In this document: positions 9,791-60,000 of the stretch, one piece after another
How the letters are laid out: every line of letters begins with the position of its first letter
How positions within the stretch are numbered: position 1 is the first letter of the stretch
Assembly: GCA_015178975.1 (NCBI GenBank)
Contig: WHVD01000001.1
Coordinates: forward strand, 744,001-808,000
DNA length: 64,000 bases
Reading direction: 5' to 3'
Origin: Hysterangium stoloniferum
Taxonomy: Eukaryota; Basidiomycota; Agaricomycetes; Hysterangiales; Hysterangiaceae
Notes under the pieces: generated by a model
Database searches by the model: none
Seen by the model: the letters and a program-made list of their open reading frames with translations, nothing else
Told to the model about the DNA's origin: nothing
Program-made: the position numbers and the translations under genes

Positions 9791-10106
9791 TAAAATGATA
9801 GTGTTAGATATGTGAGCCAGCTCGATTGTAAGATTAGTTGAGTTACAGAAGACCATAAGCTATCCATATATTTAATATGCAGCCCTCACAAATCCCAAGA
9901 TAGGTTGCCAATGAGTTGTCTCGAATGGATTAACAAAAGGTTTGACCCATCATTGCATATAAAATAAAGCCACCTGTCCTCATTAGGATAACAAGGGGAC
10001 TATCGGGCCACGAAAACAACAAGGGGTGTGTTATAAAATGAACGCTACTGATATTCAACTTTCCTTTACTGCTTTCCTCACAATTCTTCACAAATAGTCT
10101 TTGAAA
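9791..10106. promoter_or_regulatory. P1/Q1 divergent promoter
   Basis: The gap between the divergent starts of P1 and Q1 is conserved with 13109-13428 and, in its P-side half, with the region right of P3. Shared blocks include TAAAGCCACC-like sequence near 9965 and GGGCCACGAAAACAAC near 10006-10021. Conservation across copies suggests control elements retained with the pair. Confidence 0.45.
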
Positions 10107-11426: not shown

Positions 11427-11756
11427 GCATATACCAATGTTCATTTGGTGCTCCTTTGAGTCTGATTGACCCTGCATGGATACCGTGTAGGTCCATACAC
11501 GTTCTTGTATCTACATCTCATCTCAAAATGTCCCAATAATAATTTAATAAAATCCCTATTTCATTTACACCGTTCAGATACACCAGATTAAATATATTGG
11601 TTTAATCACGCCGTTGCACGTTACAGCGGAGAGGGAAAACATACATAGCTTTATTGATTGTTGCATATTACATCCACCATCACTGTTAAGATAATATATA
11701 TATATTGTGTACGGCATATATATTAGGATATGGTAACGAACGATTAGTTATATCCT

Positions 11757-13108
11757 AATAAAATACTGTGAACAGTGATCCCTCGACGCGTCGAAGAAGT
11801 CGGTCGCCCCTTTGATCAAACTTCTTGAGCCGCCATTCTCCCGGGATTGGTCCAGGAAGTGTTAATTCACAAGCGCTCGATTTCTGTGGAGGTCGTTGTG
11901 GCCGTTCCGAAGTCCACAGCATCCACCCATCACAATGGTGTCTGTTCGTTCGATCAGATATCATTTCAAAGGAAACAAATATTGTACAGCCGATGGCCCT
12001 CCAGAAATCACGACACATGCCAGCTACATATAGTGCATTATGAAGGAAACAGACCAGCCACTGAAGCATTAGTAAACATTTATACTGGGACTGGACATCA
12101 TCGGCCACTGATTCTTCTTCCCTCTCAAGTTCAAGTATGACCCCCATGGGTTTTCCTGTGAGAGCCTTTTCTTTCCCATTGGCCTGTATCTCTTGGCTTC
12201 GTATTGTGACTGGTACGTGTCCGCGGGACGTTCAAGTTGCACGGCTATGGACGGTTCTGTCTCGTCATCCCGCCATTGAGTAAAACATATTCGTTTACTT
12301 TGCCATCCCGTTTTCTCCGCGTGGGGTTCCCTATTCTCTGTGATAGGCGGCTTAAACCCATGTGAGTTTTTGTGGCTAGTGCGACTTAGTTGTCTGCTTA
12401 CCAGGGTTACAGTGGCACTCGACGCTGGGGCAGCGAATCGACCCTTGTTCTCCAATGCTGTTAGCCTTGACAACGTTGAACAACGGCGATACGACTCACA
12501 ATAGCGTTCGCCACAAAACCATACTTAGGCCCAACTGATGGCGCGCTATGCAAATCGTTTGACCATGCCATTACTACTTTTACAAGCTGGTGAAATGAAA
12601 TCGGTTCCAGTTTGTATGTTTGATGCGGGGCGCTGTTGAACCTCCAAAACTCAATTTTCTGGTTGATGTCTATTGGAAGTGGAAAGAGATAAATGTATTG
12701 TGGTTTGTCCCCTGGCCACGTAGGCTGTGTCTTCACGGCTAGTTGCTTATCCTTCGGTAGGGTCGGAGCAATGACAGCCACGTCTTGGTCGTTCACCTCA
12801 GAGTCTTTACCGTCAATATTACCCCCTGATAATGTCCCCATCACTAAAACTTCCTTCGGTCGGGACGTTTTATCAACTTTGTAGACCACCACAGGCCTTC
12901 GCTTCCCATTATTCACCATGGCAATTCTTTGTTCGTGTTTTATGGAGTCTTCTTCAGTGATCGACGCGCTGCTGAGCCTGGCTCGACTAATCGTTACCTG
13001 GAATGAGATCTGCATACAACATATATCGCCTTCGTGGAATTTGACTGATGTCGTTGGATTACATGCGCCAAAATCGGGCATCGTCGGGTAATTCGTCAAG
13101 TATGTCAT
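11757..13108 (-). CDS. Unknown protein P, copy 2
   Basis: This is a paralogue of the unknown protein encoded at 8704-9790. It starts MTYLTNYPTMPDFG at 13108 and shares GDICCMQISFQ, TISRARLSSASIT, VLVMGTLSGGNID and PTWPGDKPQYIYLFPLPI with copy 1. The first exon appears to end at GFVANAI with a GTGAGT donor. Downstream coding similarity continues in a second frame to about 12070 and then, in a third frame, through ADDVQSQYKCLLMLQW and CTIFVSFEMISDRTN to a stop near 11757. The exact introns are unresolved. It pairs divergently with Q2. Of the three copies this one has the longest open 3' part, so it is the best candidate for an intact gene. Confidence 0.55.
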
Positions 13109-13428
13109 TAAAATGAGTGTTAGATATGTGAGCCAGCTCGAGTATATGGTTAGTTGTGATACAGAACGACCATTAAGCCACCCATATCTTTAATACCCAG
13201 CGGTTCCCCACAAATCACAAAAAAGGCTATTAATTATTTTGTCTCAAATGAATTAATAAAATGTTTTAATCTATAAAAGCAAGCCACCTTTCCTCATTGG
13301 GAGAACAAGGGGACGGACCATCGGGCCACGAAAACAACAAAGGCGTGTTATAAATTATAAAACCCTGCTGGGAATTTGGCGGTTGCCCACGACCTACCCT
13401 CACACGCTTTAAAGTTGAATCTTTGCAA
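13109..13428. promoter_or_regulatory. P2/Q2 divergent promoter
   Basis: This gap between the P2 and Q2 starts aligns with the P1/Q1 gap. It includes the shared block ATCGGGCCACGAAAACAAC near 13319-13337 and the AAGCCACC-type block near 13279. Confidence 0.45.
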
Positions 13429-14759
13429 ATGGCTGATGAACTTGAAAAGCTTTATCCCAGCTTCACCTTTTTGTTGTTCTCATTGAATCCTATAGCAAGC
13501 GTGGCATTTTTGAGAGATGATGTGGCCACCGCTGCTGCAGAAGCTATCACAAGTAAACAGTACGCGTTTGCATATCCTCAATAGTTTAGCACTAATTTAC
13601 TGTAGGTATCTGGGGATGGTAACGCTAGCTTCATATTCTCGACATCTCGATGGTGGATTGCTCACTACTCTGGGAGTACGGGTCGTGTCTCGAAAGTATC
13701 CCAAATCATTACCTCTGCCAGAGATGAACGAGAACTCATTCATTCCCATATCTCCCGCCTCTCACCCTCTTGGACGGCAGCCTGTCCAACCGAATGCAAT
13801 TCTGCCGTGGAATAACTGCTTTTTTCACTGCCGGCCAGCGATCAACTTTGTGCCTGCATCAGTGGACCGAGAAAATGCAAAATTCGTGTCCATAACTGAA
13901 GAGGATGAATATTATCTTGTAGAAACCATTCGTGCAGACATAGATGATCGTGAAGAGAGATGGAGAGTCGCTGTTCAGTCCGGGGAAGCTCCACAGATGC
14001 TGAAGCAATACAGCACAGAATCTTTCGGTGCAGATTTTTTGACTACTTACAAGCAAGATACGGAAAATGATGGGTATAATTCGGAAGACGATGAACCGGA
14101 AGAATCCATCTCTCTCGAAGAGCAGCTCCTGCTACAACGCTTAGAGTATACACGGTTTAGTCAATTCGAGGCTATCGATATATCTTATAATCTCTCTGCA
14201 TCTTCCGAAATAGGAGACCTAGATGATCTTCTACTGCAACTTGACCAAATATCCCGGTACCGTACAATTCCGTCATGCTCGACGATTTGTGTTCATGATA
14301 ACCTCGCAGTGTTATAGATGATTCGAAGAATCGTGCAACGTCACGGCTGCAAGAAATTGCTAAATCCAAAGTACAAGATCTCGCTTGGGTAAAAGACGGT
14401 GAGTGATAGAAGTTGACTCTAACTAGCTTGGAGCTAAGGGATGTACTCTGATAGCGAATGCAGCTCTTGGGGTTGACGATGATGCAGCATCAATCGGTGA
14501 GTTCTCTGTGTGCCCAAAGTATTGTGACTTCGTCTCAACTCATTCAACAGATAATCCGGTCATGCCCAACGATAACACTGAGCCTGTACCTACCAATATT
14601 ATAAAAGGCAGCTGGTCTGAACCATGGCGCTTCCGCAAACCACGTTTTATTCGATCAATGTCCAAGTTCAAAGCCCCAAATTTATCGCTTAAAATCTCTT
14701 CCCTTATTTTCGGTTGTTTTGGTTCAGGTGTTGTCTTATCCGAAAAGGCAGTTCTCTGA
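13429..14759 (+). CDS. Unknown protein Q, copy 2
   Basis: This is a paralogue of Q copy 1 with an identical gene structure: exons 13429-13559, 13606-14261, 14318-14398, 14455-14496 and 14551-14759, of 131, 656, 81, 42 and 209 nt in both copies, giving 372 residues. Shared blocks are MADELEKLYPSFTF, SPASHPLGRQPVQPNAILPW, SISLEEQLLLQRLEYTRF, SASSEIGDLDDLLLQLDQIS and SWSEPWRFRKPRFIRS. Substitutions are spread over the protein with no frame-breaking indel inside the exons, so both copies look maintained. The function is unknown. It is divergent from P2, and no Q copy follows P3. Confidence 0.7.
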
Positions 14760-15607
14760 GCACGCACCAATATTGTGTCCATTTGGTAGCTACTTTTACC
14801 TTAAATGCACACTATGTAGATTGACACACGTCTCTCGTATTCTATATCGAATCGCCGAATCGCCTGAAAATAATTTGATAAAATCCTCATTTTATTTCCA
14901 CCGTTCAGACACACCATATTGGTTTAATCACGCTGTTGCACATTACAGCGGAGGCGGGCACCTCACATCGCTTTATAATTGTTGCCAAATGTATTCACCA
15001 CCTCTACCAAAATAAAATAAAATATTTGTAGAAGCCCGTCCTCTCTTACGTCTGTGGTTCAATGGCTGGAAACTAGTCTGTTGACACAACATCAGCCTGG
15101 GTATGCACGGCACACGAGCAAGAACAAGTTAAAATTACCAAGAAGTGTCCATCAAATGAAATTGCAACTTAACTACAACCAAACAAACAAAATTCAAGAA
15201 ATTATTTCAAGTATTTATATGGCATTTAGAATTTTATATCTATGTTTCAATTTTTGTCACTTTGTTTCAAAGGTGATTATAGTCTTTGATATCTGCCATG
15301 GAATGAAATTTTTCCTATATTTCTTTTCCTGGGCGGATACACTATTCTCAAGAATTGACGTACTAACAGAATCCCAATGATAGTTTGATATATCTGTGTG
15401 CTTCTCAATCGGAAGGGATTCCGAGTTATGTTCAAACATGCAGATCTGATTTACTGTTCTATGGATATCCTCCGCCAGAATAGAATACTTCTTCAGCAAG
15501 TGAGAAGTCGATTGGAAAGTCATGGTTTGTTCTATCGAGTCCATAGAACTCCCATATCGCGATGGCGCCTCTCCGTTCAATCAGAGATCATCCCAAAGGG
15601 AACAAAC

Positions 15608-15823
15608 TGTAATCCCGTCGTCAATTGGGATCACTGGCGGTCACACAAGTTGACAGGACCACGGTGTATTGTCCAGAGCAGAACAAGATACAGGCAAGTG
15701 CAGCGTACGGTAAGATCTAAGGTCCTGAAAACTTCCCGGCTACTTATACCGTACAACACGGTGATTATGTAATCACGTAAAACTAAAGGGTCCGTGCGTA
15801 AGACTGGGGGCACCAGGATTACA
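15608..15823. mobile_element. 216-bp MITE-like insertion with 5-bp target duplication
   Basis: The segment begins TGTAATCC and ends GGATTACA, a perfect 8-bp terminal inverted repeat, and is flanked by CAAAC on both sides (15603-15607 and 15824-15828). The two paralogous regions (near 8618 and 11975) lack it and read continuously across the site, so they serve as empty sites. It codes for nothing obvious. The superfamily is not clear from an 8-bp repeat and a 5-bp duplication. Confidence 0.75.
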
Positions 15824-16965
15824 CAAACGTTGTACAGCAGACATCTCTCCAGAAGACACCTCTCCAACGGATTTCATCCGGTGCGACACACGTACCAGTT
15901 AGGTTATAGTGCATTACGAGGGAAATGGGGCCACTTAACATCTGTCCCCCCCACTGAAGCATTAGTAAACCTTTATACTGGGGCTGGACATCATCGGCCT
16001 CCGATGCTTCTTCGCTGTCATCCATCCTCCCAAGTCCAAGTTTGATTTCCATCGGTTTCCTTGGAGATTTTTCCGTTTTCATTGGCCTGGATATTTTAGC
16101 CCGGTTTTGTGATTGGTACGTATTTGCGAGGCATTCAAGTTGCAAGGTTATAGACGGTTCCGTTTCGTCATCCGCCGTTGAGTAAAACCTATCCGATTAC
16201 TTTGCCATCTTGTTTTTTCTACGTGAAGATTCCCATTATCTGTGATAGACGGCTTAAACCATGTGAGTTTTTGTGGCTAGTTCAACTTAGTTGTTCGCGC
16301 ACGAGGGTTACAGTGGCACTCGACGCCAGGTCAACGAATCTGGCCTTGTTCTCCAGTGCTGTTAGCCTTGATAACGCTGAACAACTGCGATACGACTCAC
16401 AATGGCTTTTGCTACAGAACCATGCGTAGGCCCAACTGATGACGCGTTATCCCAATCATACAAATCGGCGAAACGAAGTCGAAACAAGTTTGTATGCTTG
16501 GTGGGGAGGCATTGTTGAACCCCCAATACTCGATTTCCTGGTTGACGTCTATTGGAAGCGGAAAGAGATTAATGTATTGTGCTTTGTCCCCTGGCCACGC
16601 AGGTTGTGTCTTCACGGTTATTTACTCACTCCTTGGTATGTCGGAGCAACAACAGCCACGTCTTGGTCGTTCACCTCGGAGTCTTTATGGTTGATATCAC
16701 CCCCGGAAAATCTCCCCATCACTAAAACTTGGCTTGGTCGAGACTTGTCATCAACTCTGTAGACGCCAACAGGTCTGTATTCTCCTTCATTATTTAATAG
16801 CGCAACCAGTTTTTCATCTTTTGTGGAATGTTCTTTGGTTATTGACGCACTGCTGAGCCTGGCTCGACTAATCGTTTTCTGGAGCGAGATTTTCATGCAA
16901 CACATATCGCCTCCTTCGAACGTAACTGGTGTCGTTGTTGGATTGTGTGCAGCCAATTCAGGCAT
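15824..16965 (-). pseudogene. Decayed copy 3 of unknown protein P
   Basis: It starts like the other P copies (MPELAAHNPTTTPVTF, GDMCCMKISLQ, TISRARLSSASIT), but the frame breaks near 16620 after VAVVAPTYQGV. The next conserved block (QPAWPGDKAQYINLFPLPI) is in a different frame, which breaks again near 16500. Copies 1 and 2 are continuous over both places. Further downstream the QSQ..AK..RPM and ADDVQPQYKGLLMLQ blocks remain recognisable, and a MITE-like element interrupts the copy beyond 15824. No Q partner lies to its right. I call it a pseudogene; a rescued shorter product cannot be excluded. Confidence 0.65.
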
Positions 16966-17045
16966 CGTTGAGTAAGGCTGTTAATATTTTGTCTCGAATA
17001 AATTAACAAAATGTTTCAACCCATACAAGAAAGCCACCCTTCTCA

Positions 17046-17774
17046 TTGCACGCATGTGATCACTTGAAAAAGGCCAGGATCTCAAAATTGAAAGCATCCT
17101 TTATGAAGGCGGGGTGTTATATAGACCCGCGGATCGCACTTGGGGATCCTGAACCGAGTTGAAATTGGTTAAGAACCTAGGAGCTTGGGGTTGAGGGTTG
17201 ATGGATTCTTAACCGACTCCAACTCGATCAAGTGATCTTCGTTAAGTTAAGAGACATTGGAACAAATCCAGAAGTATTGTATTATGAATTTCCGTAACAC
17301 GGTAGCCAGGCTTATCTACATTTCGACACGACGGGTGGAATTTTGACTTTATTATGCAGCGCTCAAGGCATCCGCATCAGGGATTTGGGAATGTCTACAC
17401 CCATTATGTAGATTCCCTAGCCTCCCTAGCCTCCCTAGATCTAAAGTAAGCTTCTATACCGACTAGTAAATAGGGATTTCACGAAAGTAGTGTCTAGCCG
17501 AGTCTAGCCGAGCTAGCTAGATGGCTCTAGACAATATAGACGGCATACTCACTGATCTTCCCACTTTCCTGGTGCGGCGGTAGCACTTTGCCTTCCGTTG
17601 AACGACGCCCAATTTCCTTGAAGGGGCTTCCAGGACTACCAATCTACAACACTTGAATGCCACAAGGCAGGCCCACACAATCGCTCCTATATACCAAACC
17701 AGTGTTCACTATGCCTGATTGTTATTATAAAACAGCAGTATAATATTCGTCCTTCGAATGTAATATTCGAGTTT
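17046..17774. other. Intergenic region with one copy of a dispersed repeat
   Basis: No gene was seen. Bases about 17371-17490 match, in reverse complement, 41265-41370; both contain GACTAGTAAATAGGGAT and the TTGGGAAT/ACACCCATTATGT blocks. Two short local tandem repeats also occur, CCTAGCCTC units near 17419-17440 and GTCTAGCCGA units near 17501-17520. Confidence 0.55.
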
Positions 17775-31444: not shown

Positions 31445-33640
31445 GGATGCTAAAAAGGTTGAAAGGGGGCCCAGCTTCCCCAGATTTGCAGCATGGAAGT
31501 CCAAAACAACTTCTGGTGCATTTCCAAGTTCAGTAGCCAGGATCCAGGATGTTTCTTCATCTGTACCTTCATATCATAGCCAGACCACTTCACCAAATAA
31601 AGCAGTTTGCAAACATGTCGCCATTGATTGATTTTAGAGTCCAGTATGGCCTCAATTTTGAATTTGGGCTTTCCATTAATGATGATGGGTGAGGAGGGGA
31701 CTGAATACGTTTGGGGATTATATTCAGCATGGCTGGTTCTAGTATGGAGATGTGGAAAACTGGATGTACTGCACACATGCTGTTGGGAAGCCAAAGGGTG
31801 AATGAATGGGTACCAGCCTGCACAATAATCTTGTAAGGACTAAGATATTTTTCAGCAAGCTTTTTTGTGGGTTGGTCCTAAAAAACTCAGCTTTGACAAA
31901 CACTCAGTCACCAATTTTAAAGTTGGGTGACCAAAGATGTCAGCAGTCCACCCATTTCTGGGTGTATGCTTGAGTGTCAAGTATGGATTGCTGGAGGGTG
32001 TGGTGGAGTTCATCTAAATTGGTGACAAACTCTTGAGTGCAGGCAGAGGCCAGATCATGTTCCAGATGGACCATGATATTGGGATTGTAGCCTTTATTCA
32101 CAAAGAAAGGGGACACACCAGTAGTGGCATGCAGGGTGTTGTTGTAGGCAAATTCAATGAGAGGCAGGAGGTCTGACCAATTGTCCTGTTTGTAATTGCA
32201 ATAGATATGAAGATATTGTTCCAATGTCTGGTTAACTCATTCAGTCTACCTGTCACCTCTGGATGGTGGCTTGAAGTGAAATGCAACTTAATATTGAGGG
32301 CCATGCCGAGTAATTTGAAGAAGTGGGAAATGAATTCGGAACCCCAATCTGAGGTGACATGAGTTGGGACACCATGTTTTGAGAAGATGTGGATAACAAA
32401 TAGCTTTGCAAGTTCTTGGGAGGTAATTGTGTCATGTGTTGTGTTAGAATAAAAATACTCTGGTTGGTAAATCTGTCTACAACAACCGGTATAGAGGTGT
32501 AGAACTGTGAGGGAGGAATGAATATGTTCAATGAAATCCATGGGAGGTCTGGTATGGGAAGTTGCTTAAGTAGACCATAGGGTTTGTGTCTTTGGGCTTG
32601 AATCACATACAGGTGGTACAAGACTTGCAATAGCTTTTTACAAGTGTGCAGAGGGCCAGCCAGGTGTATTTTTGATGGATGATACTGAGGGTTTTGTTGA
32701 ATCCATAGTGGCCAGAGATGGGGTAGTCATGAGCATGTTGGAGGACACATAAACAAAGTGTTCTGGTGTCTGGTAGATGGATTCTGCCATCTAGGCGAAT
32801 GAAACCACTTGAGTCCAAGTCCATTGGGGGGCTGATAGGTCATTGGGGTTTTTGAGGTGGGAACTAGTGATTGGATCATTTTGGAGGTCCAATAGGATAT
32901 ATTGGTGAAGCTTTGTGATATCCATAATGGTGATGCCATGGAGTATTGGTATGACTAGCAAGGAGGCTTGAAGGGATGCCATTAGTTGTTCAGAGGTAAA
33001 GATGGCCTTGAAATTGTGTGGGTTAACTGCTGCATAATCACTGGTCCCCTCTTTAAGGTAGACATCCCATCATTTAGTCATGGCATCAGGTTTGCCACCT
33101 AGGTGGCCAGGCCAAAAGTGAATCACAAGTTTAAATTGGGAGAGGTATTCTGACCATTGGGCTTGCTGATGAGTAAGAAGTCTAGTTGTAGCAAAATATT
33201 CTAAATTCTTATGGTCAGTGACAACATCAATTGGGATGCCTGAACCTTCGAGGTAATGATGCCAGGTTTTGAACACCTCAAAGATGGCAAGGAGTTCTTT
33301 GTCATGGACATCATAATTGAGTTCTGTAGAGGTAAAAGTTCTGGAAAGGAAGGCAACTGGGTGAATTTCTCCATCAGAGGTAATAATTGAAAGGATTGTG
33401 GCTAGTGCATAGTCAGATGCATCTATTTTGATGATTATCAGGCAGTCCAGTTGCCAATGTGTAAGGATGGGTGCCAATATAAATGCATATTTGAACTGTT
33501 GGAAAGCCATTCTGCATTGATCTGTAAAAATCCAGAGGGTCCCCTTTCTAGTAAGGCAAGTAAGGGAAGTTTCTGAATAGTTGTGTATGAAATGACAGTA
33601 AAAATTGGTGAAGCCAAGGAAAGACTGAATGTCTTTGACT
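31445..33640 (-). mobile_element. Second Ty3/gypsy pol remnant
   Basis: On the minus strand, from right to left: end of reverse transcriptase (FYCHFIHNYSETSL), RNase H (IIIKIDASDYALATILSI, FLSRTFTSTELNYDVHDKEL, VVTDHKNLEYFATT), the integrase zinc-binding region (LCLCVLQHAHDYPISGHYGF), the integrase core (VTSDWGSEFISHFF) and a chromodomain end (LLYLVKWSGY). Several stops and frameshifts break it, so it is inactive. It is related to but diverged from the remnant at 26-27.6 kb and is homologous, in opposite orientation, to the fragment at 43.8-45.2 kb. At 33640 it is cut by a Tc1/mariner piece. Confidence 0.8.
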
Positions 33641-34597
33641 TTTCAGGGTTCCAGCCACTTGCAGATAGTCTGGATTTTCTCTTTGTCCATTGTAAACCAT
33701 AACTGATCCTCCACCAAACTTCACTGTCCCTTGAACAAGCCTCTCATTCAGGCCTTCCCCAGTTTTTTTCCATGCCCATTTCCTCCCATCTGAGCCAAGG
33801 CAATTTATTTTAGTCTCATCAGACCACACAACCCTCCTCCAGTCATCTAAAGTCCAGTGCTGGTGGGCCAAAGCAAAGTCAAGTCTCTCCTTCATATGTC
33901 TCTTGGACAAAAGTGGCTTCTTCTTCTTCACAACTGCTTTCATCCCTGCTTTCTTCAAGCTCCTCCAAACTGTCTCAGCTGAAATAGGGTTGTTGGTGAT
34001 GTCTGAAGTTTCTGGGCTATGTCCACTGCAGTTTCAGCCTTTCTAGATGTGATTAGATGGACTGCATGACCAATGTTGGTAGCAGAGAGCTTCTTGGGAT
34101 GACCTCCAGTTGATTTGGGAAGGGTAGGAAGGTGCTTAGATAGTACCAATGCCAAAACCAGTGATTGAGGCAATGGATGGAGTGGAATGGCCAGCTTCAA
34201 GTAGAGAGATAATATATTGTTGTTGAGCAGGAGAGAGGGAGTGCATGATGGATTGCTGGCAATGTGAAGAGACAGTAATATCAAAATTGACTATAGATCA
34301 ACAAGTCATGTGACCATATTGAATAGAATCAACAAAGACATGTGATTTGGCCAGTTTATATAGTATATATTGTATCAAAATCATCAGCCACAAAACCTTT
34401 CCAATGAGCAGGCCTGACTAAACTATTTGTAGCATACCCAAAAATGCATATTATGTAATAATACTCTAGACCTTGATTCTATACATGTTTAGCTATCCAG
34501 TGTGAATTTTTGAAATGTTTTCCTATTTTCTCTCCCCTGGTAGCAGTCTGCCAATATGCAAACTCCAAACATTGGAAAGGTTTTGTGAGTCACTGTA
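33641..34597 (-). mobile_element. Tc1/mariner transposon fragment
   Basis: The minus strand encodes a broken transposase. An N-terminal helix-turn-helix part (LPKSTGGHPKKLSATNIGHA, then AVDIAQKL) is followed, after a frame change, by KPLLSKRHMKERLDFALAHQ and VVWSDETKINCLGSDGRKW, where SDET carries the first catalytic Asp. The sequence stops shortly after GGGSVMVY and before the rest of the catalytic core, at the junction with the gypsy remnant. Right of the gene, GTGAGTCACTG ends against TA at 34598, as expected for a transposon end next to its TA target. An inverted pair of CACAAAACCTTTCCAATG occurs at about 34390 and 34572-34589. The left end is missing. Confidence 0.75.
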
Positions 34598-35140
34598 ATC
34601 AAATTCAGTCTATCAGATGACATTCTGGAGAATAAGGAAATATTAATATTTATCTTGTATCTGACAAAAGTTAGTCAAACAAACATATATAGATTATCTT
34701 TTTGGGGATAAATTCCACAATATGGATTGGTTGGCCAGATAGTTCTGGCTAACTTTCTAAACCAAATGAATTTAAATTATATGAACTATACTTGAAAGTT
34801 CACATGTATACAAGAATGCATCTTATCCCAAAGATTAACTCATAACCCAAATAATTTTGTTTAACCATGACATTTGTGGATATTTTAAAAGGCACAGAGA
34901 TACTAGAAAATGCATTTTATCCCAAAGATTAGTTAACAACCCAAATAATCTTGTTTAACCATAACATTTGTGCATATTTTAAAAGAGCATACAAGTCTTA
35001 AAGATGAAATTTTGGAGTAATGAAATATAAACCCCTAACATGTAGTCATAGCCAACAGAAATAGTCTCACTTAAAAATATGAGGACTTTTTCATAAAATT
35101 TTGCATATTTAATAAATTGTGACTATCCTCCTATCTCCCA
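34598..35140. repeat. Left arm of a long inverted repeat
   Basis: About 540 bp of AT-rich DNA that matches the reverse complement of roughly 43080-43612. Shared blocks include TAATCAAATTCAGT at the outer edge, CCAGATAGTTCTGG, TTTAAATTATATGAA, CATAACCCAAATAAT and GTGACTATCCTCCTAT-like sequence at the inner edge. A local duplication repeats the TTATCCCAAAGATTA block. Confidence 0.75.
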
Positions 35141-35301: not shown

Positions 35302-37302
35302 TCACAAATTATTGAAGGTGGATGCAAGTTTACCATGGATGTTAATGTATCTGGATGCTCTGGGCCCAAGCAGTTGCTTGCACACCTCCAGGACTTGTAC
35401 TTCCAGCTTCTGAGCTTCAGTATACTTTCCCAGATTCTTCATGGTGGATGCCAAGTTTGCCATAGATGCTAATGTAGATGGATGCCCTGGGCCAAGCAGT
35501 TGCTTATGTGCCTCCAGGACCTGCACTTCCAGCTCCTGAGCTTCAGCACACATTCCCAGAGTTTTCAAGGTGGATGCCAACTTTCCCATGGATGTTAATG
35601 TATCTGGATGATCTGGGCCAAACAGCTGCTTGTATGCATCCAGGACCTGAACTTCCAGCTCCTGAGCTTCAGTATACTTTCCCAGATTCTTTAAGGTGGA
35701 TGCCAAGTTTCTCATGGATATTAATGTAGATGGATGGTCTGGGCCAACCAGTTGCTTGTGTGCCTCCAGGACCTGCACTTCCAGCTCTTGAGCTTCAGTA
35801 TATTTTCCCAGATCTGACAAGGTATATGCCAAATTTCCCATGGATGTTAATGTAGATGGATGCTCTGGGCCAAGCAGTTGCTTGCGTGCCTCCAGGACCT
35901 GCACTTCCAGCTCTTGAGCTTCAGTATACTTTCCCAGATCTGACAAGGTATATGCCAAATTTCCCATGGATGTTAATGTATCTGGATGTTCTGGGCCAAG
36001 CAGTTGCTTGCGTGCTTCCAGGACCTGCACTTCCAGTTCCTGAGCTTCAGTATACTCTCTCAGATTCTTCAAGGTGGATGCCAAGTTTGCCATACATGTT
36101 AATGTAGATGGATGGTCTGGGCCAAGCAGTGTCTTGCATGCCTCCAGGACCTGAACTTCCAGCTCCTGAGCTTCAGTATACTTTCCCAAATCTGACAAGG
36201 TGCATGCCAATTTTCCCATGGATGTTAATGTAGATGGATGCTTTTGGCCAAGCAGTTGCCTGTGTGCCTCCAGGACCTGCACTTCCAGCTCCTGAGCTTC
36301 AGTATACTTTCCCAGATTCTTCAAGGTGGATGCCAAGTTTCTCATGGATGTTAATGTAGATGGATGGTTTGGGCCAAGCAGTTGCTTGTATGCCTCCAGG
36401 ACCTGCACTTCCAGCTCTTGAGCTTCAGTATATTTTCCCATATCTGACAAGGTATATGCCAAATTTCCCATGGATGTTAATGTAGATGGATGCTCTGGAC
36501 CAAGCAGTTGCTTGCGTGCCTCCAGGACCTGCACTTCCAGCTCCTGAGCTTCAGTATACCTTCCCAGATCTGACAAGGTATATGCCAAATTTCCCATGGA
36601 TGTTAATGTATCTGGATGTTCTGGGCCAAGCAGTTGCTTGCGTGCTTCCAGGACCTGCACTTCCAGCTCCTGAGCTTCAGTATACTTTCTCAGATTCTTC
36701 AAGGTGGATGCCAAGTTTGCCATACATGTTAATGTAGATGGATGGTCTGGACCAAGCAGTGTCTTACATGCCTCCAGGACCTGCACTTCCAGCTCCTGAG
36801 CTTCAGTATACTTTCCCAAATCTGACAAGGTGCATGCCAATTTTCCCATGGATGTTAATGTAGATGGATGCTTTGGGCCAAGCAGTTGCCTGTGTGCCTC
36901 CAGGACCTGCACTTCCAGCTCCTGAGCTTCAGTATACTTTCCCAGATTCTTCAAGGTAGATGCCAAGTTTCTCATGGATGTTAATGTAGATGGATGGTTT
37001 GGGCCAAGCAGTTGCTTGTATGCCTCCAGGACCTGCACTTCCAGCTCTTGAGCTTCAGTATATTTTCCCAGATCTGACAATGTATATGCCAAATTTCCCA
37101 TGGATGTTAATGTAGATGGATGCTCTGGGCCAAGCAGTTGCTGGTGTGCCTCCAGGACCTGCACTTCCAGCTCCTGAGCTTCAGTATACTTTCCCAGGTT
37201 CTTCAAGGAGGATGCCAAGTTTCCCATAGATCTTAATGTATCTGGATGCTCTAGGCCAAGCAGTTGCTTGTGTGTCTCCAAGACCTGCACTTCCAGCTCC
37301 TG
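35302..37302 (-). repeat. TPR array, 16 units of 126 bp
   Basis: Sixteen units of 42 residues with the pattern QELEVQVLEA..QLLGP.HP then TLTSMGNLA.TL.NLGKYTEA. Units 3-7 (36421-37050) and 8-12 (35791-36420) are nearly identical as five-unit blocks, differing by about five residues over 210. The final unit is out of frame across its middle and then ends. Confidence 0.9.
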
Positions 37303-40025
37303 AGCTTTGCCATATTTTCCCTGCCTTTTCCATATATATGCCAACTTCAATATCATAGCCCTCGAATGATAATGCTCTGATCCTAAGATCAATTTTCTGA
37401 GGTCCAATACCTGTTGACAAAATCTGCTAGCATGGTTCCAGTATCCATTTTTAACAAACTCTTCTATCTGAGCACTGTGCTCATCATCACAGTAGGATAA
37501 TCCAAAATCTGCATTATACTGATAATATGTTATCATATGGGGTAATATCATTCTATGAAAGTGATAGGAATGCTCCACCAAATCTTCATTCCCATTGATT
37601 GAGTTTACAATTAAAGCTCGTGCTGCAGCCAGATATATGACCTGTTTCTCCATAACTACTTTGTCTCTCACCCATATTTGCACTATAGGATGAATGGTCC
37701 ATGATAATCCAGTGATTGATGGAACTTTTGATATCAGTGAATAATCACAAAGCAGTTGCATTATTGTTCTGAACTTTGTGTGGATCCATTGATTATGCTC
37801 ATCACATTTAAGAAACTGGGATGGAAGATCAAGCCATGTAGTTCTCAACTGGGAATCTTTGATATACCATTCTGGTGCCTCTGCAGCCTTCTTGAATATT
37901 ATTTCCATAATATTTTGGTGATGAAAGAATCCAAGCATTTTTAGAAGAAATAATGCATCCTTAGCAATATCTCCCTGAGGATTTTTCTTCTCTATCAACT
38001 CATATGAAATGTTTAGTGTGTCATAAATTGTTTGGTTATACAATGAGGCCCCTTTATATAAGGGATGATTTCCACAGAGAAGTATCTCATGGTTCTCAAG
38101 ATATCTTGATGTATACTCCTCCACTGTACACAATCCCATATATATAGCTGCACCAGCAATATCCAATGCCAAAGGCAGGAGGCCAAGTGTTTCTGCAATC
38201 ATTTGCAGTGGGCCATCCTTTAACAACTCAGTTTTACTCTCCCTCATTGAGGATTTCATAAGCAGTGAAAGTGCATCTTCTTTAGACATTACCTCAAGAT
38301 TGAGGGTGTTGCTCACAGACTGCTGCAGATCAGAATTTCTACTTGTGATCAACACATCCAATGAATGTGCTAGAGGGATGTATTTTGAAACCAGAGTGGT
38401 CATGCCATCAGCATTATCAAAAATAAGCAAGCACTTTCTTTCCAGTCCAGCAAGCCATCCTGTAATGTATTTACCTGATTCTTCAATCTCCAGAGACTTC
38501 ATTACAGGATCAAGTTTAGAGATTTCAGCAAAACTTGTCTCAAGGGTTTCTGCAGTTGTAGCATCAAGCCATAATATCCTCCAGTAGCTAGGTGACAAAT
38601 CAGTATAGTTAGAACTGCAGTATGTTTAGAGTAATAATGAAATAACCTACAGCTTAAGATCTGCACACTCCTCAGCAAACTTTAAGGAAATTTGGGTCTT
38701 TCCAATACCACCCATGCCATACAACAGCAAATGTTTTCGGCAAAGTGTAATATTCTCATTTACAAAGAATGTTCTTAACTTCTCCAGGTAAATATCTTGA
38801 CCAGTGAACCTTGGGCTGGATAAGAGCTTGGGTCTATAAGATGGACCCTTATTCAAAATATCTGATGCTCCACATGAGAATATAGACCTTTACAAGCAGC
38901 AAATATACTATACCGTCAGACTGGGTAACATCTTTTCCACATACCGGCTCCAGTGTAGGAAGATCACTCTTTATACCTTGCAACAGTGAGACCACTACAA
39001 TGAAATCATCATCTTTAGCTGAGCAATATTTTGTCATATCCGTGTGATTCTTGTTCAGTCCAATAGGTTCAGCATTTCGTGCACCTGGAACAATGGCAGA
39101 GGACCTTGGCACAATCTGACTCCATATGAGTTAGTAACAATCAGGTAGCGCAGTTTAAAGCACTTACAAAGCCAGATGTGCCGTCATCTAGAACAGTTTG
39201 ATAGATCTCATAAAGAAACTTTGTATTGAAACAAGCACTGATCCCATTGTAAAGAGCTAACTGTATCTCCAACATCTCTGAATTGATTGCCAAGTTTCGT
39301 AACAGTGTATGACTAGTATTCTCATCAACTGGCAGACGGACAAGCAGCATTTGGGACGCAGAGAGTGCAAGAGCTGCCCCTTGGTGCGGAGTCCCAAAGA
39401 ACAGTATCCCAATTGTCGACAGCATTATTCGCTTGTGATGAGGGAGGTGGGATTCGTTGCATTGATTGGCATGAATCAAAGCCTACACGCACACACCCCA
39501 GTTTGATATTAGAATATCGAAGGGCTTCGCAATTAGATACCTACAAATTTAAGAATAATGCCACCTAAGCTGTGGGCGATGAAAATGATGGGACGTGTCT
39601 AGCAACAATTCAGTAAGCATTCCCCATAAATAAAAGAAACTCACGGCAGTAGTTGTGCTTTCCCTAAGCAAAGCGAGCCGCGAAATAAAATTTTCTCCGT
39701 GACCATACAATGTCTCGTCTATTTTGTACGATTGACTACCAGTGGATGCGTCATAACCGTATGTAACAATTCTGACGTTAGGCAATTGCTGCGGCAATAG
39801 GTCTTTAAGCCAGAGTATTCCGTTCTCGGCTGTCCAGGAGCCTTCGCGGTGACCATCGAGGCCATGGATGGCGACAATGCTGTTAGAATTGTCATTAGCG
39901 GAGAAGTACCGGCAAATTGTCAACATGACACACTCGATAGTCGGGGCGATGCCCTCAACGAGCACTTTAATGCCCAGTCCAGAATCCGCAGGATTACGAG
40001 TATGGTTCAAAATTTCTGGTTCCAT
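35302..40025 (-). CDS. NLR-like STAND protein: alpha/beta hydrolase, NB-ARC, TPR array
   Basis: The N-terminal exons (40025 to about 39141) encode a lipase-like alpha/beta hydrolase: IVAIHGLDGHREGSWTAENG, a nucleophile motif IIFIAHSLGGIILK read across a splice, and ILFFGTPHQGAA. An NB-ARC domain follows: P-loop LLLYGMGGIGKTQISL (exon 38647-38870), then on the large exon from about 38580 a Walker B CLLIFDNAD, LDVLITSRNSD, GLLPLALDIAGA and the MHD-like SWTIHPIVQIW. The C-terminal half is a tetratricopeptide array. Such proteins are fungal counterparts of NLR immune and self/non-self receptors: ligand sensing by the repeats, nucleotide-driven oligomerisation, and an N-terminal effector. At least six introns of about 50-65 nt are present; the intron inside the first exon is in frame and easily missed. 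The last repeat is frame-shifted and truncated. The gene is embedded among transposons. Confidence 0.85.
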
Positions 40026-42661
40026 CTAAAACTGAAGAGTTCAAAGATAGTACTTCCTTTGTATGAAACAAGATGCAGCTACCTAAATTTCAAGTTCTTT
40101 CTTCCAAATAACTTCAAGGATGCAATGGTTGGTTGCAAGATAACACGTCGTACCTGTAACACTGTCACGTCCGCACAGCTCTGCATCTCCGTCGTGTCCA
40201 TGAATAGCGTACTGATTGACGAGGTACTGATATGTTTACACTAACATGTGTGTCACATTGGATCTTCCTTCACATCGTAGCACAGCGAAGATACCGGTAG
40301 GTTTTGTTGCTACACGACAGGAAGTCTTGCGAAGGAGCATTCTGAGCTAGGGGTGTCGATCGTCTGATTTATTCTTTTGCTGTTCACTCATCTGTATTTC
40401 TCACATAATTTCAAATTTATTATTTTCTTGTCTATAGAAATCGCTTATCGTATGTGATTTCTCTCCTTGACTATATACCCCTCAGGCATCAACTTGAGGG
40501 TTAGCACAGTTTGGAGACTTTGATGGCAGCTATCCGTTCTTCATTAAACATGTTACCCATCATGCACTTGTACCATATTTGCCCATTTGTCGTTTCAAGT
40601 TCTCTGCTTCTGGATCGTCTGGGCGGTCTCCTCTTCACCCCATTATCCTTCAACCAACACCGTAGAATACGCACCATTATATCTCGTCGTTGGGTTGCAG
40701 TGACCTCGCATATAGCCCCATCGTTGCTTATCCGTCTCCGCTGCGCTTTCCTGTCCAACATCTTTCACGTCGGTCAGTTTCGTACACGCCGTGTTTCCCG
40801 CACAATAGCATCGCCCTCCCAGGCCGTAGACCCTCCCTTACGAAGACAATGTATGCTCGATTTTATACTTCCCTCTCAGCCAACCCTTTATTGTGCCGGC
40901 CGGTACTCAGTTTCCCAGTAGCACGATCCCTCGATCCGGAGACGATACATGTATCAGATTGTAGTCATTGCAATGAGATCGTCAGATGAAACCATGCGAG
41001 AACATTCGGTGAGTATACAGCCTATCCGAGCCATTGAATAGACAACGATACTTACGTGCGTTTGCATGAACTATACGCTAGAGGTTCGGTGGATTATAAA
41101 CTCTAATACAATGGCAAACTCGTCCTCGACTTCTCGTGCACCTAACTCGTCACATAACACTTTGTGCCAAACACCACGACACGCTTGCCCGCGAATGATG
41201 TCTCGGATGTCTCGAGACATCAAAGGCCAATGTTGTCTTTCTGAGGATATGGCTGAACCCAATATACACGAGATCCCTATTTACTAGTCGGTATAAAAGC
41301 TTACTATAGATCTAGGGAGTCCACATAATGGGTGTAAATATTCCCAAATCCCTGATGAAGGCCGACAATGCCATGTAGATGCGTGTTGGAATGCGTGTAT
41401 CCCTTTAACTTAGGTTCGGCCGTCGCAGCTACAGCTTGACATAGCGAAGAGTTTTGCGTGATGGGGGTGACTGCGACAAAGGATCTGAGGTTACAGATTT
41501 AATGCACACCCGTCCACAGGTCTTGACCTATCTGGAGAATGAACAGTGCCTTTGTGTACATCTCCGACTGACGACAAGGTTACAAGACCCTGTTATCTGG
41601 CAAAATAATCTCTTTCAGGTCATTAGAGAGTATTCGCAACTAATGTATATTAACATTTTTTGATCTGATATTATGTTGGATAATATTGATGCTTGTGGTA
41701 CCTAATATTGAACAATGTATTGTGTTGGTGTCCTGTGCAATACCCATGCATGTCTCATTCCCAATCAAACATTCATTGTTATGGTTGCATGCCACCAACT
41801 GTTGATGCATATCTTCATGATTAATTCTGTTGTCTTGTATTCCTCACAATAAAACATGTATTCTTGTTTGTTTTTTGTGTGTAAGTGACAAAAGAATATT
41901 GAGAGAGTGTAACTACAATAAAATAGCAAGAAAATGGAGAAAAACAAAGATCATGATGACAGCCTCAAAAAGGTGTATGCTAGCATAGAAAACAAAGGGG
42001 ACAGGTTGAACTCAGTGAGGACCACTGAGACATGAGGTGATGGCATCTGTTAGGTAGAGAGCAAGCAAGGTGTGGTTTGGACTCAGCTGTCACACTTTAG
42101 GTCACATTGAGATAATATTTTGATTGATGATAAATAATATGTGGAGTTGATGTCCAGATCATTCCAGAGCTAATAATTATTAGTTGCAAATACTCTCTCT
42201 TTTTTCCAAATGCAAAGCTTGAAGAGAAAATATAAACATTTGAGGGAACTATGAAAAGAATGAAGCCTTCAACATTGACAATTTTGTGGAAGAGAGGTAT
42301 GCATTCCATTATTTGCCACTACTAATACGTTTTGGACCAATATGAAGCCATCAATACAAAACAGTCCTGCTTTGAGTCCTTGTGAATTATTCCATTTCCA
42401 ATGCAAGCCTTACCACCAACCAATCAAACAACCCAATTCTTACTAGAATGCACTCAACTCCATAGCACCCCACAATATTGCAGGAACATCTGCATTGCCC
42501 ATCTTTCATGTTGGATATATTAGATATGTTGGACATAGTTGGTTACAGTCTAAACTCAGCTTTAGAGCAGTGCAGATGTGTGACCATCTTTCACAGTTTC
42601 TGAGTATATGGAATGTTAACTATTACATATATAGGGTTGACTTCACTACTGAGTACCTAAA
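40026..42661. other. Region without a supported gene
   Basis: Bases 41265-41370 are the reverse-complement copy of the dispersed repeat at about 17371-17490. Open frames (for example 40511-40921 and 41066-41287) show no known domain and no conserved partner. From 41700 rightward the sequence becomes strongly AT-rich. Confidence 0.4.
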
Positions 42662-43079: not shown

Positions 43080-43612
43080 TCCTCTGATACCTGCATAAAT
43101 TTGGATTATGTACATAGGAGGATGGTCACACTTTATTGAATATACAAAATTTTACTGAATAATCCTCATATTTTTTTTTTGACAACTTATTCTATGAGTT
43201 TATATTTAATTACCTGAAATTTTAAAATATGCATGCCCTTTTAAAATATGCACAAATGACATAGTTACACAAAATTATTTGGGCTAAACAAGATTATTTG
43301 GATTAACAAAGATTATTTGGGTTAACCTAGATTATTTGGGTTATGACTTAATCTTTGGGTTATGATGTATTCTCTTGTATACAAGCAAACTTTCAAATAT
43401 ATTTCATATAATTTAAATTTAGTTGGTTTAGAGAGTTAACCAGAACTATCTGGGGTACCAATCCCCATTGTGCAATTTATTCCAAAAGAATAATCTACAG
43501 ACAATTGTTTGACTAAATTTTGTCAGATATAGGATAAATATTAATATTTTTGCATTCTTCAGAGTGATACCTAATCAACTGAATTTGATTAAATATTAAT
43601 TTTACAACAAAC
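43080..43612. repeat. Right arm of the long inverted repeat
   Basis: This is the reverse-complement partner of 34598-35140, with the same order of blocks. The inner part carries three near-copies of ATTATTTGGGTTAAC. The region between the arms holds the NLR-like gene. Confidence 0.75.
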
Positions 43613-43829
43613 AATATAAATATATATACTTTAGTGGATAAATAATTTTTAAAGTTTTGGGTTATCCTCCATACAGTGGGTCAAAAAAATGCCCCAATGT
43701 TTGTGAATTTTAGAAAGATTGATATTATGTGAAGGAATGACATCAGAAGAAATTCTGAAGAATTCACATAATATACTAGAACATGTTGGCTATCTACCAA
43801 CTTAAGAAATCATGTGATTCCAATCAAAA

Positions 43830-45240
43830 CTCATTGCTCAATAAATAACTTTACAAATCAATGCAGGACAGCTTTTCAATAGCTCAAAGACACTTTCATG
43901 TCAGTTCCCATACTTACACACTGGCAACCAGACCACCTGATAATTGTTGAAACCAATGTATCTGATTATGCACTTGCTGTGATTCTTTCCATTATTACTG
44001 TTAAGATCTAAGTTCCAAGGGAGGCTGAGATGGTGTTTTCAGGGGGCTGAAAGGGCGAATCATACTAGTCAGGAGATCCAACTCTACAAGGCAAAGTGGA
44101 GCTTGGCTTCAATGTATGTATGTATACCCTCATATGAACTGTCAAGGTGCTCTGGTATTTCAAACAGAACAGATAGTATGATGGGGACTAAAGACAACAC
44201 TTAGCTCAATTGACCAGAGAGCTGAAATACTAAGAGTCATGTGGGTAAGAGTCATTGCTTGCCAATGACATCTTTGAGAGTATTAAGAGAAGAGTAAAGG
44301 AGGTTTAAACAAGAGGAGTGTAATCTAAGTCAAAGTGGGGGTAATCTAGGTTGAAGTGGGGTAATCTAGGTTGAGTTTCAAACTAAGGAACTATAGCATA
44401 TGTACATGGTAGGAATTTTATACAAAGGTATAACAGAGGGCTGGAGGTCTGATCAAGGAAGGAGAAGTAGTAATAGGTCAAGGAAAGCATAGAAAGGGGC
44501 AGGGATCAAACTAAAACTAAATGGGATGTAACAAAAAGTATTCTAAAGGGTATGAGGCAGCAAATAGTGTTTACACATAGAACAAGTGAAGGGAGAGCAT
44601 CAGGATGGAGATGGAACAGAATGACTAGAGGGGTACTCTACAGTAAACCAAGTGTCAGGGTGCCAAGGTGGTGGCCCCATAGTCTGGGGCACTGATGTCA
44701 GGGTGCTGGAAGGTTTCCAGGTAGGAACAGGTTGTAGGATCCTGAAAGGGTGAGGATCCTAACAATTACAGCAGATGGAGAAATTCACCCAGTTGCTTTC
44801 CTTTCCAGAACCTTTACCTCTACAGAACTCAATTTATAATGTCCATGATAAAGAACTCCTTGCCATTTTTGAGGCATTCAAGACCTGGCATCATTACCTC
44901 AAAGGTTCAGGAACCCCAATTGATGTCATCACTGACCACAAGAATTTAGAATACTTTGCTACCATGAAGCTTCTTACTTGTCAGTAAGCCCAATGGTCAG
45001 AATACCTCTCCCAATTCAACCTCATGATTGGTTTTCAGCCTCTTGGCAGCAAACCCAATGCTATGACTAGATGATGGGATGTCTACCTTAAAGAAGGGAC
45101 CAATAACTATACAATAGTCAATCCACATAATTTGAAGCCTATCTTCACCTCTGACCAAATCATGGCATCCCTTCACACTACCTACCTAGTACTTTGCAGT
45201 GTGACCATTATGGATGTTACAGCACTTCTGCTTGCAACAG
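43830..45240 (+). mobile_element. Ty3/gypsy pol fragment, plus strand
   Basis: The plus strand encodes the reverse transcriptase/RNase H junction (TNQCRTAFQQLKDTF-like), an RNase H start (SDYALAVILSIIT) and, after an inserted LTR, NVHDKELLAIFEAFKTWHHY and DVITDHKNLEYFATMKLLTC, then eroded text to about 45240. Stops are present. It is homologous to the minus-strand remnant at 32.9-33.6 kb and lies just outside the right inverted-repeat arm, as that one lies outside the left arm. Confidence 0.75.
43999..44764. mobile_element. Solo LTR, 766 bp, inserted in the gypsy fragment
   Basis: It begins TGTTAAGATC and ends GGATCCTAACA, and is flanked by ATTAC at 43994-43998 and 44765-44769. The reading frame of the RNase H domain is continuous across the site if the insert and one ATTAC are disregarded. 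It contains repeated GGGGTAATCTAGGTTGA units near 44336-44376. Confidence 0.85.
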
Positions 45241-57020: not shown

Positions 57021-60000
57021 ATGACTTCTTCTCCTGAGATATCTAGTTTGAGATGGGGTTTTACCTCCAATGGAGCGATCCAAGATACCGGAAGAGCTTT
57101 TTGTAGTCAAAATGGCTCTGAGAATGTTTCTCCAGTTTGTTTCTCGAACCTGCTGGTGTACGATACTTACCCTATCATCCTTGTTCTAATAGGTTGAACA
57201 CGACAAGGAACTTCAAAATTTACTTGATGGTTTTACCGATCATTTTCAAGCCGACTCTCCTGCGAGCGCCACGGTCTCTCTTGGATCCAAGCTCGTGTCT
57301 AACACTCCATCCAAAGATGCCAAAGGCAATCTAATATATGTCTCTGTTTTTTATATCATCTAATGCCGCCTTCTTAGGGTGTAATTCCACGTCACTGTAT
57401 GAAGTCCTCATGAAACAGAACGAGGAGTTGAGGCAGATTATACTTCAATCGGCAAGCCTAAACCAATCAATACCTGCAATGATTCCGACGCATTCCTATA
57501 TGCCCGATTTCCTGCCTAATATCAATCCTGCATCCAACCTCACTCATATTCACTATTCTTCCCCTCTCGCACAGATCCAGGAGCAGCATGACATCTTTAC
57601 CGAAAGCGCCGAGAAAGAAACCACACAGATTGAATCCGGTCCGAGTCTCATAGAAGCATCAGACAGGGCTGTTGGGAACTCCCCTGTTACTGTATCTGAA
57701 AATATATCTTTGGACAACAAAAAATGCACTACACCTGACATCGCACCGACACCTGATAAATGTGATGACGACGGACAGACGGTAGCCTCATACGATGCGA
57801 CGACGGAACCCGGCTCGATCCTAGTCCCTAGAAAGGTCTCCGCCTCGCTCGAGCGAAGCGTCAGGGGCAGAAATCAGAAGAAAGAGAATAGAAAGGGCAG
57901 ACCTGTTCGGAAATTGAGTCCCGTACCGTTTAAACGACACTCTGCGGTCCCTACTCGCACCGTTCCAGCAATCAGCCTAGAGGACGTTAAAAAACTCGAG
58001 GACCGTATGGATCGATTAGAAGATTATATGCAGGCAACAACGGCGAGAGGCGTGAGTGAAAAAAAAACGTCGAGCCATATTTTTCCCAAAGACATCCAGG
58101 ATATTCACAAGGGATCAGTCGTTCCAGGGTCACAGGGCACAGATCAGCGCACAACGCGGCGGCTAGTTCGAGACCACTTCCAGGGACTTTTATTCCCTGA
58201 GAATCGCGACGAAAATTTTCGCGTTCCTTGGGCTTCTTTGGGCAGTGTACTGGCCTCGCAGCATCAAAGGTTGCTTAATTGGCCGGAATCTATCGAGATA
58301 CCCGGTGGATGGAAATGGAGTTCCACAATACTTGGCCAGAGCAGGGTGAAACTACTGTGTCGTACCACCATCGAGGACTGGACGTCTGGTAAGGAGTTTC
58401 AAATTCAGGCTGACTATCAATGGTTGACGAAAAAATGATGGTAGACGAAAAATGCACCGAGGATGGAGCCACCCCCGTCATCGTCTCTAGCCGCAATCGC
58501 GTTCTTCTGAGACTCTCAGACTTGAAAGTGTCGCGCTCCAGGACAGTCACTAAACCCAGTACCAAAGATCATGATTATAGACCGGACGTTGCAGACTCTG
58601 AGGACACGGACCAGCCTTCAATTGTCAGCCCTGGAAATCATATACGCCGGCGAGTTCGAGACCACTTCCAGGGACTTTTATTCCCTGGGAACCCTGACAA
58701 AAATATTCGTGTTCCTTGGGCTTCTTTGGGTCGTTTTCTGGCTTCGCACCATCAAAGGTTGCTTAATTGGCCGGAATCTGTCAAGGTACCCGAGGGGTGG
58801 GGATGGAGTTACGCATTAATTAGCGGGAACAAATTGAAACTGCTATGTCGTACCACCATCGAGGACTGGACGTCTGGTAAGGAGTTTCAAATTTAGGCTG
58901 ACTAGCAATGGTTGACGGAAAATAATGGTAGACGAAAAATGCACCAAGGATGGAGCCACCCCCGTCATCGTCTCTAGCCGCAATCGCGTTCTTCTGAGAC
59001 TCTCAGACTTGAACATGTCTCGCTCCAGGACAGTCACTAAACCCAGTGCCAAAGATCATGATTATAGACCGGACGTTGCAGACTCTGAGGACACGGACCA
59101 GCCTTCAATTGTCAACCGCGGAAATGATATGCGGCGTCGAGTCCGAGACCACTTCCAAGGACTTTTATTCCCTGGGAACCACGGCGAAAAGATTCGTATT
59201 CCTTGGGCTTCTTTGGGTCGTTTTCTGGCTTCGCACCATCAAAGGTTGCTTAATTGGCCGGAATCTATCAAGGTACCCGAGGGGTGGGGATGGAGTTGCG
59301 CATTAATTGGCCGGACCAAATTGAAACTACTATGCAGGACCACCATAGAGGACTGGACGTCTGGTAAGGAGTCTAAATTCAGGCTGGCTATCAATGACTG
59401 ACGACAAATGATGGTTAGACGAGAAGCACACCGAGGATGGAGCCACCCCCCTCATAGTCTCCAACCGCAATCGCGTTCTTTTGAGACTCTCAGACTTGAA
59501 CGCGTCTCCCTCCGGGACATTCATCGAATCAAAAACCAATAAGCTTGATTACAGAATTGCGATCAGACGCCATTTTCGCAAGATACTATTCGGCAGCGAT
59601 TTCGGTGAAAAGCCCTTCCAGCATATTCCATGGACATCTATGGGTGAATGGCTCTACACGAATCGGAAAAGAATTATTGGCTGGCCGCACTCAGCTAAAT
59701 ACCCAATGCAGGGCAGTGACATACTTGGGTATACCAGTCAGGAATCGAAGCAGCTCTGTTTAACTACTTTAGAAGAGTGGGCCGATGGTATGTTCGAAGT
59801 TATGGAATTCTTTCGTTTGAATCTCTCATCTTCTTATTCAACTAGAGGAAAAAGATATAATCCACGCAGAAATACCATTGGTTATATCGGACAACTACCT
59901 GGTCGTGCAGAAACTGGGTGACCTGGAGGAGTTCAGGGCGTTAGCTGCGAAGAAAGGCAAGCAACGGGCCACTACGCTAGACCTCGAGTCATCAGAGTCG

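Follow-up and report, generated by a model that had tools for sequence, protein, structure and literature searches.

Structure of the receptor gene

The window analysed here, a stretch of 64,000 nucleotides from the basidiomycete Hysterangium stoloniferum (contig WHVD01000001.1, positions 744,001 to 808,000), carries on its minus strand, at 40025-35302, what is apparently an intact gene for a fungal NOD-like receptor (NLR), predicted from the DNA alone. The spliced model has six exons and 1,482 codons and is free of internal stops. Its product joins a SesB-like alpha/beta hydrolase head, an NB-ARC switch and an array of tetratricopeptide repeats (TPRs), and is flanked by pieces of mobile elements (Table 1). 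An earlier note on this DNA had proposed an NLR combining a hydrolase, an NB-ARC domain and 16 near-identical TPRs, and both the Pfam matches and the spliced model bear this out.

Table 1. Features of the receptor gene and of its surroundings (window coordinates)
Feature	Position	Strand	Basis or remark
NLR coding region, start to stop	35302-40025	-	Spliced model without internal stops; introns kept in 14 distinct paralogs
Exons 1-6	40025-39645, 39598-39545, 39482-39168, 39115-38914, 38861-38651, 38587-35302	-	Spliced model
SesB-like alpha/beta hydrolase, exons 1-4, residues 1-317	38914-40025	-	DUF676 match; invariant S, E, H
NB-ARC, about residues 361-547, split by intron 5	38110-38733	-	Pfam, 37.6 bits; motif positions
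TPR array, sixteen units of 42 amino acids, the last out of register in its second half	35302-37314	-	Pfam, tandem-repeat analysis, DNA identity, structure model
TPR units 3-7, first copy of 5-unit block	36433-37062	-	Pairwise identity 97-99%
TPR units 8-12, second copy of 5-unit block	35803-36432	-	Pairwise identity 97-99%
Degenerate TPR sequence 3' of stop codon	35142-35301	-	Tandem-repeat array continues to 35142; stops in all three frames
Left arm, copy of a high-copy element like a miniature inverted-repeat transposable element (MITE)	34596-35131	-	Ends short at 34596, where Tc1-like terminal sequence starts
Right arm, same MITE-like element	43117-43670	+	Both ends present; 554 bp, internally shorter; 3-bp flanks ATA
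Tc1/mariner-type remnant	33548-34595	-	Transposase helix-turn-helix in 33548-34033 (HTH_Tnp_Tc3_2, 55.4 bits); extent to 34595 deduced from the junction
Gypsy-type retroelement fragment, RNase H	33070-33642	-	RT_RNaseH, 105.7 bits
Second gypsy fragment	44765-45175	+	84% identical to 32969-33384, inverted

The five introns (46-63 base pairs (bp) by coordinates) all have GT...AG ends. Their positions were fixed by comparison with 15 paralog rows, which represent 14 distinct genes, L016 and L042 being a single locus; read by eye, the GT and AG sites of all five introns align across these rows. At introns 2 and 4, other donor placings led to frames that were broken or incorrect, and an alternative intron 4 donor that keeps the frame was dropped in favour of the donor conserved in all paralog rows. 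The Pfam scores given here for NB-ARC and DUF676 were obtained with an earlier gene model, 21 residues shorter at intron 4.

Hydrolase head and NB-ARC switch

The head matches the DUF676 serine esterase family marginally (20.9 bits, cut-off 20.3). A Pfam scan at E up to 1 gave no match to a patatin domain, the head type of Neurospora PLP-1. The nucleophile motif AHSLGG, described as intact-looking in the earlier note, occupies residues 135-140 and holds up in the paralogs, where its serine, Ser137, is invariant. Ser137 shares this invariance with Glu237 (in TKFLYE) and with His274 (in NHTDM): none of the three changes in any of the 14 stop-free rows, that is, 12 distinct paralogs and the window gene, rows L037 and L019 having been left out of the count for their stops. 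The same Ser, Glu and His are kept in all eight more distant loci compared. None of the Asp residues between Ser137 and His274 is kept through to these eight loci: Asp198 is kept in the close paralogs, while its stretch is missing or unlike in the distant ones. Another acidic residue, Glu266, is lost in two of the eight. Since Glu237 persists where Asp198 and Glu266 do not, the best guess that the sequences allow is a predicted triad Ser137-Glu237-His274 with Glu, not Asp, as the acid. Of the catalytic Asp and His anticipated earlier, the His is thus present and invariant, and the place of the Asp would be taken by Glu237.

The NB-ARC match (37.6 bits) lies above its cut-off of 23.5 bits. The region contains the motifs GMGGIGKT (residues 366-373) and LLIFDNADG, which we take to be the P-loop and Walker B, respectively, as well as LITSRN and LGLLPLALD. 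Across the 15 paralog rows, pairwise ratios of nonsynonymous to synonymous substitution (dN/dS) range from 0.26 to 0.40 for the hydrolase and from 0.21 to 0.53 for the NB-ARC plus linker, the latter being only partly covered in six of the rows. Changes private to the window copy were counted against six paralog rows over 731 codons, with 52 codons set aside. They comprise 40 nonsynonymous and 33 synonymous changes, a per-site ratio of 0.34 (binomial p = 1.2e-5); one of them was scored as a stop, an artefact of scoring changes one by one within a codon, as the actual codon is not a stop. The hydrolase and NB-ARC of the window copy have therefore been under purifying selection since its split from these paralogs.

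The TPR array

TPR_10 is matched in 17 stretches with a total of 646.6 bits, and DNA identity among units 1-15 is 81-99%. The AlphaFold2 model of the single-exon TPR region, predicted from a single sequence, contains 16 helix pairs with a mean pLDDT (predicted local distance difference test) of 81.7, as the best of five models spanning 40.7 to 81.7; its final 20 residues, the second half of the last unit, are below 50. Foldseek matched this model to TPR proteins, among them kinesin light chain (KLC1) and O-GlcNAc transferase (OGT). A 630-bp block has been duplicated within the array, giving units 3-7 and 8-12. The nearest match of 12 of the 15 units (units 2-13) lies inside the gene itself; for units 1, 14 and 15 it is a unit of paralog L045. 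This pattern is expected of, and suggests, an array whose core has been homogenised.

The variation that remains among the units is concentrated at TPR positions 2, 5, 9, 12 and 13, which, in the canonical numbering, we assume to lie on the concave face and to bind ligand. Mean entropy over the 15 window units is 1.22 at these five positions versus 0.37 elsewhere (p = 0.002; p = 0.005 with eight positions left out). When units of five genes were collected with a DNA anchor, which itself fixes some of the positions, the 59 distinct units gave 1.69 versus 0.54 (p = 3e-4) when the eight positions in and around the anchor are excluded, and 1.69 versus 0.47 (p = 1e-4) when they are not. Canonical positions 31, 38 and 41 are variable too. 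The window gene thus combines high internal repeat identity with variation at binding positions, and selection for change at the five positions is suggested.

The gene family in the genome

The genome (111 Mb in 554 contigs) contains 51 NB-ARC exon matches. The window hydrolase has 211 matching pieces, and the 150 pieces listed fall into at least 111 loci, the window included. A hydrolase piece lies within 3 kb of at least 41 of the 51 NB-ARC matches, and tblastn added four more (L001, L003, L007 and L008), so that at least 45 of the 51 are accompanied by one. These counts are lower bounds, and a hydrolase locus is not necessarily an NLR. Over nearly the whole 1.4-kb stretch from hydrolase to P-loop, 18 other loci have 81-91% DNA identity to the window gene.

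When gaps of up to 40 kb are allowed, 33 of the 111 listed loci are clustered (one group of five, one of four, two of three and nine of two) and 78 are single; three loci lie within 47 kb on contig 525, for example, and contig 464 has five in about 60 kb. Clustering of NLR genes is described in Sordariales (PMC12258605). In most rows, homology to the paralogs extends upstream of the gene as far as about 41266; a short repeat is inserted in the window at that point (41270-41357, recurring at 17375-17480). In the paralog at C525:54395, homology resumes at 41358-41594 and 42239-42392 and ends short of the right arm, and for three other paralogs no match was found in a further 3.1 kb upstream. Tandem and segmental duplication would explain the family without the arms.

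Among the relatives, an NB-ARC/TPR locus on contig 157 (L049, C157:171973-184671; TPR matches at 173458-184671) has an open frame of 4,247-4,320 codons, with room for about 100 TPR units and, among the matches listed, no hydrolase piece within 3 kb. Its C-terminus ends in 19 hydrophobic residues (mean hydropathy 2.49), a possible tail anchor. Two further loci, L052 (C162) and L055 (C84), which are alike in sequence, have a similar C-terminal segment (1.87 and 1.86), and their contigs carry upstream hydrolase and NB-ARC exons (L004 and L006). Such a segment is present at three of 12 array ends examined and absent from the window gene.

Flanking repeats and the 3' end

The inverted AT-rich arms and the gypsy and Tc1-type pieces that the earlier note placed around the gene are present. 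The arms are 72% identical to each other over 545 columns and belong to a MITE-like element of about 620 bp, which, from 13 aligned copies, begins with GGAGGAT and ends with ATCCTCC. Identical 3-bp flanks border 10 of these 13 copies, the right arm included; two have none, and in the left arm the far end is missing. A search of the genome with the left arm gave 1,068 first-look candidates, of which 40, the window's own included, were scored, all at 90% identity or more; the 39 others, at 90-93%, are all on other contigs. The left copy breaks off where sequence like a Tc1 terminus follows after TA, and its missing far end was not found in the window.

Given that the right copy has its own 3-bp flanks and that the arm pair is missing from the four closest paralogs, the arms are independent insertions of an abundant MITE-like element and do not form a unit that mobilises the gene. 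A search of about 4.5 kb upstream of these four paralogs did not find the right arm, and the stretches read beyond their arrays did not show the left arm in its orientation. One of them, L048, does carry the element, oppositely oriented and about 100 bp beyond the end of its array, and we take this as a separate insertion given the copy number of the element in the genome. The suggestion in the earlier note that the gene was moved or copied through the arms, for which paralogs with the same flanks were sought, is therefore not upheld.

At the 3' end of the gene, the second half of the last TPR unit is out of register up to the stop codon at 35304-35302, and degenerate units follow beyond it. 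The left MITE-like copy starts at 35131, directly in TPR-derived sequence, and no other match to TPR DNA was found in the window. The array ends of some other family members are followed by shared sequence: L051 and L053 have a tail in common, as do L046 and L047, over 143 bp. Neither tail is present in the window, which fits a loss of the original 3' end; the tail of L053, found in L051, is absent from the four closest paralogs as well. A short match to L049 (98 columns, 73%) was set aside, as it lies far beyond the L049 array. The left MITE copy sits in the array end and probably removed the original 3' end of the gene. The other pieces around the gene, of MITE, Tc1 and gypsy type, are best explained as bystanders.

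Interpretation and alternatives

The gene is likely to encode a SesB-like/NB-ARC/TPR receptor of the NLR class, with a predicted ligand sensor, a switch and a hydrolase that would serve as death effector. In the working that we propose, the concave face of the 16-TPR superhelix would bind a self, non-self or modified-self protein. Binding would free the NB-ARC switch for nucleotide exchange and oligomerisation, and the clustered hydrolase heads could then act on a lipid or other ester and bring about a local cell-death or defence response. The lipid-directed cell-death effector of the earlier note is thus a fair inference, widened to a lipid or other ester. Duplication of repeat blocks and their homogenisation would have diversified the sensor, and segmental and tandem duplication the gene family.

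Several observations weigh against parts of this interpretation. The DUF676 match barely exceeds its cut-off, the sole match of the hydrolase in a PDB sequence search has E = 0.093, and the role of Glu237 as catalytic acid is proposed from conservation alone. At the five TPR positions, a crude pairwise pN/pS is 0.92, not above 1 (0.58 elsewhere), and synonymous differences are raised there as well; the 15 window units are also non-independent, as units 3-7 and 8-12 are near copies. Finally, the C-terminus is damaged, with its last unit out of register and its array cut by the MITE, and function may recently have been lost. The weak resemblance to solved hydrolases would also suit a head that is a non-enzyme fold for protein contacts, signalling to another effector, and the excerpts consulted on such NLRs name no substrate for any SesB-like head. 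Against it, Ser, Glu and His are invariant in every stop-free row and in every distant locus compared, and we regard this alternative as improbable.

That the gene is a young pseudogene, whose original 3' end was taken by the MITE insertion and whose head and switch look intact only for want of time to decay, is a more serious alternative, although still an unlikely one. It is favoured by the junction of the left MITE edge with interrupted TPR sequence, by the unit out of register and the degenerate units beyond the stop, and by damage among the close relatives: before the TPR region, paralog L034 has a large insertion in its exons and L037 and L038 have frameshifts, and the arrays of L045 and L047 carry frame breaks. 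However, apart from the last half-unit, 1,482 codons are read without a stop or frameshift, and the private changes of the window copy show constraint. A shortened array need not abolish function, as TPR number varies naturally from 2 to more than 15 in Podospora anserina Pa_2_10340 (PMC4986451). There is very little probability that the NLR is instead carried as cargo between the inverted arms, with the whole acting as a composite mobile unit. The gypsy and AT-rich pieces do stand in symmetric inverted order on either side of the gene, and L048 also has an element copy close beyond its array. Against this, the AT-rich element stands alone elsewhere, in high copy number and with its own ends and flanks; this NLR gene lies within 1.5 kb of none of 11 copies fetched from elsewhere, and the arms are far less alike than the left arm is to copies elsewhere. 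The near-identical arms and single outer target duplication of a composite transposon were not found here, and the homology to the paralogs ends before the right arm is reached. An apparently intact receptor gene, with the repeats inserted around it, remains the reading that we prefer.

Comparison with known systems

Viewed singly, this is an ordinary fungal NLR gene on an already known plan, and the family and its host hold more interest than the transposon nest. The likenesses below are drawn from published descriptions. The closest is to Pa_2_10340 of Podospora anserina, also SesB-like/NB-ARC/TPR, in which repeat number changes and the binding face varies (Dyrka et al. 2014, PMC4986451). 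Both genes have the three-part plan, internally near-identical TPRs and variation at binding positions. Pa_2_10340, however, is an ascomycete locus that has been followed across strains, whereas the window gene belongs to a very large family in a basidiomycete and has its array end cut by a MITE. Neurospora crassa PLP-1 (patatin/NB-ARC/TPR) likewise combines NB-ARC and TPRs with a lipase-type head, and triggers cell death in a manner that requires both the activity of the head and the nucleotide-binding motif; its head is a patatin-like phospholipase, in contrast to the SesB-like alpha/beta hydrolase found here (PMC12881547). A protein of Serendipita (Piriformospora) indica listed in a table of PMC4986451 shares with the window gene a SesB-like head on a basidiomycete NLR, but has NACHT and WD40 in place of NB-ARC and TPR. 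Human SERAC1 has a lipase domain that is related to SesB-like heads and directed at phospholipids, and is not described as an NLR in the excerpt consulted (PMC4986451).

SesB-like heads are reported to be almost absent from basidiomycete NLRs (PMC9815663), so that a large SesB-like family in this genome would be unusual for a basidiomycete; our searches of an open-licence library gave no description of such an expansion. A basidiomycete lineage with SesB-like/NB-ARC/TPR receptors at a hundred or more loci, with block-built arrays of 16 to about 100 TPRs and with some of the lipase receptors anchored in membranes, is a possibility that we put forward tentatively. The pattern known from Podospora, near-identical repeats that differ at binding positions, is repeated here in a basidiomycete. 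The family includes recent duplicates, arrays that differ greatly in length and copies both intact and broken. It could thus offer material for studying the gain and loss of immune-type receptors in fungi, and the reasons for which a lipase-type head, reportedly missing from most basidiomycetes, is retained in some.

Other features of the window and genome

Rfam and tRNA scans of the whole window gave no matches. At 8627-16975, a 3-kb segment is present twice (8682-11711 and 12014-15030, 83% identical), with a partial third copy at 15830-16975 (76-77%); two open reading frames in this region have no Pfam match, and neither has an open frame of 589 codons at 4278-6047 on the minus strand. At 58156-59555, a direct repeat of about 0.9 kb has overlapping copies that are 89% identical. 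The ribosomal RNA unit of the genome resembles that of an Agaricomycete, and DUF6534, a domain typical of basidiomycetes, is matched 21 times; the basidiomycete pheromone family PF08015 gave no match, but as the controls gave none either, this result weighs neither way. Elsewhere in the genome there are five 5.8S matches (L043, L044 and three others), with scores falling from 155 to 128 bits, which suggests divergent ribosomal DNA copies.

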